Position numbers and translations under genes: made by a program
Notes under the pieces: model-generated
Seen by the model: only the letters and a program-made list of their open reading frames with translations
Told to the model about the DNA's origin: nothing
Database searches by the model: none
Part shown: in pieces, positions 43,367-47,005 of the stretch
How positions within the stretch are numbered: the first letter of the stretch is position 1
Layout of the letters: the number at the start of each line of letters is the position of its first letter
Assembly (NCBI GenBank): GCA_031279515.1
Contig: JAITII010000032.1
Location: 36,303-100,302 of the forward strand
DNA: 64,000 nucleotides
Origin: Deltaproteobacteria bacterium
GTDB lineage: Bacteria; Desulfobacterota; Desulfarculia; Adiutricales; Adiutricaceae
Direction of reading: 5' to 3'

Positions 43367-45793
43367 GTGTCCCATAACCTAAAATCATTTCTCAAAAGTC
43401 CAATTAAGTACTCTTTAAAGAACCTGGACTTTATCAAGATCTTAGAGCGCCTCTCCCAGCTGGAACCGGGCAAGAGCTATGTGGAAAACTCCTCTAAGCC
43501 AGGGCCTAGTTTTGAGGACCAGGAGCAAATAGCAAAACTGGCCGTAGATCTTGCGGAAAGGTCCTTTTCTGCCAAAGGGGACCCAGTAAATCGCCAGGAA
43601 CTCAAAAGCCATGCCGATATAATCTCTTGCCAGTACGACTGGCCACTGCACAAGACTAGCAAGGCAGCCTGCTTCAATGTGCTAACCCACATCTTTGAGA
43701 CCCAGTCTTTGGAAAACCTCTATATCTCAGAGGACAGACGAGAGCTAAAGAACCTCCCTAAAGTTTTAGAGGCCCAGAAGGATAACTTAGGGGTAGTCTA
43801 TCTCATCAACCACACCTCCCATTTCGATGAGTTCCTCTTTGACATCTTTTTAGATAGCCTAGGACTCCAGCTGCCACTTTTTGCTGCCGGCTCCAACATG
43901 ATGGCCACCCCAAGCCTCACTAAGTTCTTCATGATAGGCTCCTATGTCATCATCCGCAAAGGGGCCTCCAGGTCATATCTATCGGTACTACATCACTACT
44001 GTCAGGCCTTGGCCGAGATGGGAAAACCCCAGGGCATCTTCCTGGAGGCCTGGTCCGGCGGAGCCCGGACCAGGGATGGTAGCCTCAGGTACCCCAGACG
44101 CCTGGTTACCCTCCAAGGGGCCCTAGCCTGCCGGGGGGATGTCCTTATCCAGCCCGTGGTCATAAGTTACTCCAGGGTACCGGAAGACTTGGACCTCTCT
44201 GAGGGAAAGGGCCTTTGGTCCTGGCTAAATGGCCACCATATGTATAGGGAGGCCTTGAAAAGTCCGGCCCATCCTCTCCAGGGCATGGCTAGAGGACTCA
44301 AAGGACTCTACGGCCGCACCTATATAGAGTTTTGCGAGGGAAAACTTCTTAGCCAGCTAAAATCTGAATGGACCCAGAAACCCCAGACCTTGGAGCTGGA
44401 TGAATACACAGCACTCTACGCCATCAGAGAAATAGCCAGGGATAAAAAGATCATGGCCTCCCACCTGGCGGCCCTGGGTTTAGAGCTGGCTTTAAAGAGG
44501 GGCTCAAATGATATAGTGGCTCAAGCGGAAGAGAAGTTGGCCGACATCCGTGACTACCACAGCCGGGTCTTTGAAACAGAGCCTTCCTTAGAGGACTTTG
44601 TCCGGGATAGGCCCATGGTAGAAACCATTTCCGACGGCCTGGCCTCTTTAGGGGCCAGAAAGATTATCAAAGGGCGCCTTGAAGATAAAAAGCTCCCCAA
44701 GGTACGCTCCTGGCACGGGCTTTCCTACTATGCCACCCACAGTGACCATAGGCTCTATAGCCCAGCTGGAAAAGAGAACATGGTGGTCTGCGGAGCTGGA
44801 CCCTGGGGCTTTGCCCTAGTGACCCATGTGGGGAGGCGGACTTTAAATGACCGCAAGTTTCATAACTCCAGCTTGTCACTCTATGATTCTTCACCTGAAC
44901 TCATAGCGGAAATTGATGACCAGCGTACCCACCGGGAATTTCCCTCCCAAAGGCTCCCGAAAAATGTCTTTCCCTCCTCTGATACTGTGGAGGCCTTCAG
45001 AAAGGCCAATGACGTCATAGTGGCGGTCCCCCCCTTGGACTGTCAGGCACTTTTTAAGACCATCTTTTCCAACTCCAAGGATCTAAGGAGCCTCATCTTG
45101 GCCTCCAGGGGCTTTGACCCCCTGTCCCACAGGCTCACCATCCAAATAGCCTGGGAAGCAGCTGTGGCAGCTGGAAGACCAGACGTTAGTATCTTAGCCC
45201 TCTCAGGGCCCTTTTCTCCGGAAGACCTCTTAGAGGACAAAGGCGGGTCCTTTATCTTGGCCTCTTCCCAAAAAGAGGGAAAGATTCCCGAGGCTTCCCT
45301 CTTTAAGTTCAATAAATTTCAGGTTGTGGAAAGCTCTGACCCCTTGGGCGTCCAGGTGGCAGCGGCCTTGGCCGATGCCTATAGCCTGTACTACGCCTAT
45401 CTCTCTGAGCACAAGTCCTTAAAACAGCCCGCCCAAATAGCCGCCTTTATCCGTGAGGTGAGCTACGAAACCAAGACTTTGGCCATGGCCCTGGGGGCCA
45501 AACCCAGTACCTTTGAGTCGGACCAGTACGCCTGGATCCCGGAGTTCATCTTTGCCTCCCTTACTGCCGAGACCCACTATTCCGTTAAGCAGGCCGCCCT
45601 GAAAGGCGGTGACGGCTTAAGGCATCTTTTGCAGGACAACCCGGAAGAGTACCAATGGCCTGACAAGGGGGCCTTAGGCTATCAATCCATCCGCTCAGCT
45701 CATCTCATTGCCAAGAACCTTTCCTTAAAGGTGCCCCACCTGGACAAGGCCAATGACGTCTTCTGGGGCAATACTATCCCCAGGGGCAATTAA
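43367..45793 (+). CDS. fusion: glycerophospholipid acyltransferase (PlsB/PlsC-type) + NAD-G3P dehydrogenase (GpsA)-like domain
   Basis: NHTSHFDEF (NHx4D), LEAWSGGARTRDG, VLIQPVVISYSRV in the N-terminal half; VVCGAGPWGFALVTHVGR Rossmann motif, ANDVIVAVP and TLAMALGAKPSTF in the C-terminal half. Confidence 0.78.
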   Translation: MSHNLKSFLKSPIKYSLKNLDFIKILERLSQLEPGKSYVENSSKPGPSFEDQEQIAKLAVDLAERSFSAKGDPVNRQELKSHADIISCQYDWPLHKTSKAACFNVLTHIFETQSLENLYISEDRRELKNLPKVLEAQKDNLGVVYLINHTSHFDEFLFDIFLDSLGLQLPLFAAGSNMMATPSLTKFFMIGSYVIIRKGASRSYLSVLHHYCQALAEMGKPQGIFLEAWSGGARTRDGSLRYPRRLVTLQGALACRGDVLIQPVVISYSRVPEDLDLSEGKGLWSWLNGHHMYREALKSPAHPLQGMARGLKGLYGRTYIEFCEGKLLSQLKSEWTQKPQTLELDEYTALYAIREIARDKKIMASHLAALGLELALKRGSNDIVAQAEEKLADIRDYHSRVFETEPSLEDFVRDRPMVETISDGLASLGARKIIKGRLEDKKLPKVRSWHGLSYYATHSDHRLYSPAGKENMVVCGAGPWGFALVTHVGRRTLNDRKFHNSSLSLYDSSPELIAEIDDQRTHREFPSQRLPKNVFPSSDTVEAFRKANDVIVAVPPLDCQALFKTIFSNSKDLRSLILASRGFDPLSHRLTIQIAWEAAVAAGRPDVSILALSGPFSPEDLLEDKGGSFILASSQKEGKIPEASLFKFNKFQVVESSDPLGVQVAAALADAYSLYYAYLSEHKSLKQPAQIAAFIREVSYETKTLAMALGAKPSTFESDQYAWIPEFIFASLTAETHYSVKQAALKGGDGLRHLLQDNPEEYQWPDKGALGYQSIRSAHLIAKNLSLKVPHLDKANDVFWGNTIPRGN

Positions 45794-46051: not shown

Positions 46052-47005
46052 ATGCCCTTGCGCCTCACGTTTATCCTGAAGCTTCTACTTGCCCTCGCAC
46101 TTGTACCACTTTTTTCAGCCTGCGGGGTCTTTACAGACATGGTACGAGACAATGAGCTCTCTGTTCCACTTTTAAATAGCCCAGATTTTTTAAGTCCAGC
46201 TAAGCTCAGGGCAGGGATCTTACCCTTCCAGGATCAGGTGACTGCCAATCCGGAAACCGGTCCCAACCTTGCTAGGCTCATGACAGAAGAATATGAAGAT
46301 AACGGGAACCTCTTGATGGTCCCAGCTGCAGAGGTGAAGCGCTATGTCGATTTAATGGGAATACGCTCACCTATTACTGCGGAACAGGCGGTACAGATCT
46401 GCCGCGACTTAAACCTTAACCTTGTCATGGAAGGCACCTTAGCCCATATTGGCCAGAGCCAGGTTCGCTCTGGCTGGCGCAGACTCTTCAGATGGTTCTC
46501 TAACCAGCAGGTCTATGTAGAGGCCATCCTCTATCTCAATGCTTTTGACCCCAGTGATGGGACGATTATTACCTCCAGGGCAGCAGAATCCCGCATCAAA
46601 GTGGGACGCGCCCCTGAAAGGGGCGTCATGGGAGAGATGCAACGCTATCAGCTCACCCAGGAAGACATAGAAGATTCCTTAGATGAAGCCTTGGAAGGCT
46701 TATATATGCGGTCCCTAGAGGGCCTGAGGGTATTTCCCTTCAAGGCACCCATCATAAGTACCCAAGGAGACACGGCCACCATCAACTTTGGCTCTGAAGT
46801 AAGGCTCCGCAGGGGTCAAGAATTCGCTGTCCTCTCTTTGGGTGACCAGGTGATAAACCCCATAGGCAGGGTCTATAATGTACCAGGTGCCCCTGCTGCA
46901 CTTTTGAAGGTGCAATCAGTGAGCGAAGGTTCTACCACCTTGACTATAGTTCGCGGAACAGTAAGGCCCGGAGATTTTATCCAGTCCTGGAAGTTCAATG
47001 ATTAA
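46052..47005 (+). CDS. putative lipoprotein, CsgG/FlgT-like fold suspected
   Basis: Lipobox LFSAC; RAGILPFQDQ ... LNLNLVMEGTLA ... C-terminal GDTATINFGSEVRLRRGQEFAVLSLGDQV ... GDFIQSW. Confidence 0.6.
   Translation: MPLRLTFILKLLLALALVPLFSACGVFTDMVRDNELSVPLLNSPDFLSPAKLRAGILPFQDQVTANPETGPNLARLMTEEYEDNGNLLMVPAAEVKRYVDLMGIRSPITAEQAVQICRDLNLNLVMEGTLAHIGQSQVRSGWRRLFRWFSNQQVYVEAILYLNAFDPSDGTIITSRAAESRIKVGRAPERGVMGEMQRYQLTQEDIEDSLDEALEGLYMRSLEGLRVFPFKAPIISTQGDTATINFGSEVRLRRGQEFAVLSLGDQVINPIGRVYNVPGAPAALLKVQSVSEGSTTLTIVRGTVRPGDFIQSWKFND

Follow-up and report, generated by a model that had tools for sequence, protein, structure and literature searches.

A single open reading frame in the stretch of DNA analysed here (the window, 64,000 nucleotides) joins a glycerophospholipid acyltransferase to a domain resembling the glycerol-3-phosphate (G3P) dehydrogenase GpsA, and raises the question of whether one polypeptide both makes G3P and acylates it or whether its second half is no longer an enzyme. 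Fused enzymes are usually read as both activities running together. Here, the analysis makes it likely that the window protein is a PlsB/GPAT1-type G3P 1-O-acyltransferase carrying a non-catalytic former GpsA domain, and that it descends from a bifunctional fusion.

Domain architecture and distribution of the fusion

The protein (808 residues) is encoded by a single intact gene with a GTG start. Its features are given below; class rows are the aligned fusions from the window's class, and f16 and f58 are two other families of the phylum that carry an acyltransferase–GpsA fusion.

43367..45793 (+): entire fusion ORF, PlsB/GPAT1-type acyltransferase plus degenerate GpsA, from domain and structure matches
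43778..44167 (+): acyltransferase domain PF01553, residues 138–267 (39.7 bits, cut-off 23)
43808..43834 (+): motif I NHTSHFDEF, of the form HX4D (H149, D154), with H and D in 67/67 class rows with letters there
44042..44080 (+): motif III variant LEAWSGGARTRDG, residues 226–238, with G231 at the position of the PlsB motif-III glutamate
44729..44764 (+): joining motif YATHSDHRLYSP, residues 455–466, partly common to the f16/f58 fusions (Y455, D460, R462, Y464)
44780..45274 (+): GpsA N-terminal Rossmann domain PF01210, residues 472–636, GAGPWG intact (54.6 bits, cut-off 23.1)
45107..45109 (+): first catalytic-lysine site (human K120), R581 in the residue table
45338..45772 (+): GpsA C-terminal domain PF07479, residues 658–802, degenerate (15.0 bits, under the cut-off of 25)
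45371..45373 (+): second catalytic-lysine site (human K204), A669 in the residue table

Pfam domains and structural matches both confirm the architecture given in the preliminary description, an acyltransferase fused to a GpsA fold. By sequence, the solved chains nearest the N-terminal half are human GPAT1 (8e4y, E = 8.2e-06) and a bacterial glycerol-3-phosphate acyltransferase (9vuq, E = 9.8e-06), and the NCBIfam plsB equivalog model scores 40.9 bits against a cut-off of 618.5. The structure of the window protein was predicted from 26 aligned sequences (pLDDT 84.4, pTM 0.60); at this pTM the mutual placing of the two halves in the model is uncertain. Residues 31–535 of the model match human GPAT1 (Z = 24.3, rmsd 4.4, 380 residues aligned), the sole acyltransferase among the structural matches listed, and thereby show the GPAT fold; 9vuq is not among the 50 structural matches listed, which was not counted against the GPAT match. 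Residues 467–804 match the GpsA structure 3k96 (Z = 34.0, rmsd 2.7, 310 aligned). The next family for this half is ketopantoate reductase (Z = 22.0), and its assignment to a Rossmann family other than GpsA was rejected on this comparison. The NCBIfam GpsA model (NF000942) scores 71 bits, far under its cut-off of 257.

Compared with PlsB/GPAT1 (TIGR03703; 8e4y), the window protein has the same fold, HX4D motif, motif-II arginine and motif-IV proline, but differs in motif III (LEAWSGGARTRDG, against EGGRSRTG in PlsB) and in having a GpsA-fold domain in place of a detectable GPAT_C domain (PF19277 gave no Pfam match in the window protein at E values up to 10). Relative to the NAD(P)H-dependent GpsA dehydrogenase (3k96; NF000942), the C-terminal half retains the fold and the Rossmann motif but lacks the equivalents of K120, K204, N205, D260, T264, R269 and N270 (human numbering). 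A further likeness is to the algal bidomain enzyme DsGPDH of Dunaliella (6iuy, Z = 33.4), which likewise couples a GpsA-type domain to another glycerol-phosphate enzyme; its partner is a phosphatase-type domain that yields glycerol, according to part of the text of PMC7468427, whereas the partner in the window protein is an acyltransferase. The literature search, which reached few subscription journals and was aimed at fusions and at a dead GpsA, found no paper describing this acyltransferase–GpsA fusion, and the words fusion and fused are absent from the main text of a phylogenetic study of membrane-lipid genes (PMC6431249).

In a sample of 60 genomes centred on the window's class, the fusion is present in 54 (the window's own included), with partial genes scored as present (for example in G001, G004, G035, G038, G040 and G057); it is missing from G003, G022, G037, G039, G041 and G056. 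By family, it occurs in 35/37 genomes of f1 (the window's family), 2/2 of f3, 16/17 of f5 and 1/1 of f6, and in none of those sampled from f2 (0/2) and f4 (0/1). This retention, together with the alignments, rules out a pseudogene or assembly artefact. Independently, 67 fusion loci were found, the named ones including Ca. Adiutrix, Desulfarculus, Desulfocarbo and Dethiosulfatarculus, which suggests that the window comes from a member of Desulfobacterota close to Ca. Adiutrix; in a sample of 394 genomes from the phylum 26 exceeded 150 bits (18 from the class, three from f16 and five from f58). One class-type fusion (L120) lies on a contig labelled Spirochaetaceae, probably mis-binned or transferred. 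The ORFs adjoining the window's fusion match either DUF3426/zinc ribbon or no Pfam family at all, and no lipid-synthesis family was found among the scanned neighbours of the f58 and f16 fusions. Downstream, an ORF at 46052–47005 (+) encodes 317 residues with, by eye, a lipoprotein-like start and no Pfam family.

Active-site residues and constraint in the two halves

Residues K120, K204, N205, D260, T264, R269, N270 and Q295 of human GPDH show high conservation from organism to organism; the carbonyl oxygen is contacted by K120 and K204, D260 is paired with K120, and R269 and N270 hold the phosphate (all from part of the text of PMC12874384). In an alignment of the window protein to two canonical GpsA sequences, the column of the first lysine (A[ST]KGIE) contains R581 of ASRGFDP and that of the second (GALKN/GAFKN) contains A669 of AALADAY. 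The suspicion, raised by eye, that both catalytic lysines are missing is thus upheld by alignment, and the losses extend further than had been recognized, which supports the suggested pseudoenzyme: K120, K204, N205, D260, T264, R269 and N270 are replaced by R581, A669, D670, E726, A730, E735 and T736, with E726 and E735 lying in the degenerate PF07479 region.

The same losses run through the class. Among 72 class rows (human GPD1 numbering; denominators are the rows with letters at the position), the wild-type residue is found at K120 in 1/70, K204 in 0/69, N205 in 1/69, D260 in 0/67, T264 in 4/67, R269 in 1/66 and N270 in 3/67. The counts leave out L002 and L035, which are copies of the window, and L152, a copy of L140; the rows are not independent, and L117 is counted twice, as two pieces. 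A single class fusion (L024, genome G017) has a lysine at the first site (ASKGFE), its second site not being lysine, and another (L051, genome G058) carries about 34 extra residues in this half, inserted past the region of residue 520. All seven positions are kept in six free GpsA proteins from the phylum. Lysines hidden by misalignment were rejected as an explanation, as every free GpsA and f16/f58 bridge row with letters at the two columns has lysine at both.

The nucleotide-binding part of the site has fared differently from its substrate part. The GxGxxG motif, intact in the window protein (GAGPWG, residues 476–481), is intact in 59/70 class rows and damaged in 11 (for example 'GEA' in L032 and L053), and the aspartate after strand 2 is present in 67/70. 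This aspartate occurs in both fusion clades and is absent from the six free GpsA. Five residues (K532, N533, F535, F544 and K546) are invariant in all 70 class rows, and as a set are common neither to the f16/f58 fusions nor to the six free GpsA; they belong to 26 positions from residue 441 onwards that are at least 95% conserved in the class only. In three close pairs of fusions (L037/L091, L099/L100 and L008/L009), omega for the C-terminal half is 0.125–0.158; it reaches about 0.4 in other close pairs and about 1.08 in more distant ones, among the 40 of 1112 pairs listed. The dN/dS values of distant pairs were set aside as evidence because dS looks saturated. Together, these features are consistent with a GpsA half in which the fold and, for most members, the NAD(H)-binding motif survive and the DHAP/G3P site has been lost; purifying selection would preserve it as a structural or regulatory module in which further residues have become invariant.

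The acyltransferase half is the better conserved of the two in the class (mean identity 54%, against 43% for the C-terminal half, which is the higher in 146/2408 pairs). H149, D154 and R197 are each present in 67/67 class rows with letters there, and R234, P263 and G231 each in 68/68. In the region of motif III, LEAW is invariant (47/47 rows), and the window protein reads SGGARTR rather than EGGRSR or EGTRSR; EGGRSR is found in nine of the ten separate PlsB proteins scanned from the same phylum. The acyl acceptor could therefore differ from that of PlsB, as G231 replaces the glutamate and the score is far under the plsB cut-off.

Sister fusions, separate genes and origin

The fusions of f16 and f58 show the converse pattern. 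Both lysine sites are occupied by lysine in 7/7 rows, and when these rows were extended with further f58 genomes, K120, K204, N205, D260, T264 and R269 were kept in 19/19 rows reaching the region; at the N270 position, f16 has N and f58 has S. In the three f16/f58 fusions scanned, both GpsA Pfam domains exceed their cut-offs, while PF01553 goes undetected in L215 and L217 and scores 23.2 bits in L216. The catalytic histidine of motif I is Y in f16 (3/3) and H in f58, in which HX4D is kept in 16/16 rows; the motif-II arginine is missing from all eight f16/f58 rows, and motif III reads ASRYTTRSIDG or RTSRYTVRSRDG, with near variants. Both folds are present in the model of an f58 fusion (Z = 39.9 to GpsA and 25.9 to GPAT1). 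Mean identity is reversed relative to the class, at 45% for the N-terminal and 62% for the C-terminal half, in 21/21 pairs. The tyrosine in motif I (f16), the loss of the motif-II arginine and the changes in motif III mark this acyltransferase half as worn; judged from these residues, it has probably lost its activity in f16 and become altered or inactive in f58.

The separate genes for each step follow the same division. A gpsA outside the fusion (PF01210 above 100 bits) is present in 49 of the 54 fusion-bearing class genomes, including the window's own, in which it is canonical (NCBIfam, 388 bits), and was not found by this search in G004, G015, G033, G034 and G040. G040, whose fusion is degenerate, is 95% complete; its lack of a gpsA match may stem from an assembly gap. 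By contrast, no separate gpsA was found in nine f16/f58 genomes (best other PF01210 match 36.7 bits) or in 18 f58 genomes (32.2 bits), leaving the fusion's GpsA half as the only GpsA detected; two such weak matches (L160, L162) proved to be 3-hydroxyacyl-CoA dehydrogenases. Neither a full fusion nor gpsA is seen in genome G440 of f58 or in genome G138 of f16. PlsB-size PF01553 ORFs (865–992 residues) are present in 9/9 f16/f58 genomes, and the three such PlsB scanned carry GPAT_C after the acyltransferase domain. Three f16 genomes (G138, G069 and G105) have an extra PlsB-like protein of 507–514 residues with HRSNxD (L212, L213 and L214, respectively); L213, the only one scanned, has only part of GPAT_C.

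PlsY is absent from all 37 f1 genomes and from the nine f16/f58 genomes, and present in 18/19 fusion-bearing f3/f5/f6 genomes. PlsX was not found in f1 except as three weak matches (G006, G022 and G034; 57–70 bits, about 390–410 residues); in the fusion-bearing f3/f5/f6 genomes it is present in 17/19, being missing from G038 and G046. The latter (f5) lacks both PlsX and PlsY and has kept the fusion. Besides the fusion, the window's genome contains only two PF01553 proteins, one of 275 residues and one, of Aas type, of 1143 residues. With no PlsY and no strong PlsX in f1, the fusion is probably the glycerol-3-phosphate acyltransferase of this family. The missing genes are not proof that it fills the step, however, since f2 (G037 and G039) has PlsX and neither the fusion nor PlsY was found there.

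In a tree of the GpsA half (58 rows), the class fusions (25), the f16/f58 fusions (7) and free GpsA (26) fall on separate sides, with branch supports of 100/100, 98/92 and 100/100, respectively. The free GpsA of the class fall inside the free clade, and a fusion with the class's own gpsA was rejected. In the tree of the acyltransferase half, the fusions lie apart from ten PlsB and three short PlsB-like proteins, a placement that carries a warning of long-branch attraction; outgroups were drawn solely from this phylum. The two fusion clades have the junction residues Y455, D460, R462 and Y464 in common. Since the intact form of each site is seen both in the outgroup of that half and in one of the two fusion clades, the simplest reading is a single fusion event with both sites intact, and the ancestor most likely had both activities. 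Judging from the residues and trees, this bifunctional ancestor then probably decayed in roughly opposite directions, since in f16/f58 the GpsA half is intact without a separate gpsA and the acyltransferase half is eroded beside a separate PlsB. The mirror image is incomplete, with HX4D still present in f58.

Possible roles of the GpsA half

The retained GpsA fold and dinucleotide motif, and the catalytically intact appearance of the GpsA side in the f16/f58 relatives, would fit a bifunctional enzyme with an unusual active site, the C-terminal half making G3P and channelling it to the N-terminal half for acylation. This possibility, also put forward in the preliminary description, is contradicted by the loss across the class of seven positions that handle DHAP or catalyse its reduction and by the separate canonical gpsA in 49/54 genomes, the window's included; channelling is therefore not supported in the window protein, and we consider a bifunctional enzyme there highly improbable. 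We favour the acyltransferase with a non-catalytic GpsA domain, in which G3P would be supplied by the separate canonical GpsA and the N-terminal half would, as the gene complement suggests, probably carry out the first acylation.

For the role of that non-catalytic domain, three proposals were weighed. It may be a purely structural replacement for GPAT_C, acting for example in dimerisation or membrane docking: GPAT_C is undetected in the window protein and present in the f16/f58 PlsB, the fold is kept without its catalytic residues, and residues invariant only in the class lie near the junction. Structure alone leaves the mostly kept nucleotide-site residues unexplained, and we hold this proposal tentatively, at somewhat less than an even chance. 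Those residues, with GxGxxG in 59/70 and the strand-2 aspartate in 67/70 rows, would instead suit an NAD(H) sensor that tunes the acyltransferase to the redox state, the substrate part of the site being lost and the nucleotide part mostly kept; given the motif damage in 11/70 rows, such a sensor is possible but rather unlikely. An earlier suggestion of G3P/NAD sensing thus survives only in its NAD part and at that same low strength, as loss of the phosphate-binding R269 and N270 positions makes G3P sensing at the classical site unlikely. The combined scenario, in which a bifunctional G3P synthase–acyltransferase decayed oppositely in the two lineages, neither of which discarded its dead half, and the dead GpsA of the window's lineage became an NAD(H)-responsive allosteric coupler of redox state to the step that first commits the cell to membrane-lipid synthesis, appears less likely still. 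The invariant K532, N533, F535, F544 and K546, shared with neither f16/f58 nor free GpsA, could alternatively reflect a new catalytic or metabolite-binding function, but they suggest no ligand or reaction and may belong to an interface; we regard a new function as distinctly doubtful.

Annotation from a domain match alone could mislabel the window protein as a G3P dehydrogenase. On the reading we favour, of an acyltransferase with a former GpsA domain, it offers a candidate for the enzyme of the first acylation, otherwise missing in bacteria that have neither PlsX nor PlsY. More broadly, two sister lineages seem to have worn down different halves of one fusion, and in each the weakened function is also encoded separately; the fusion therefore offers a natural test of the role of a fused domain beyond catalysis.
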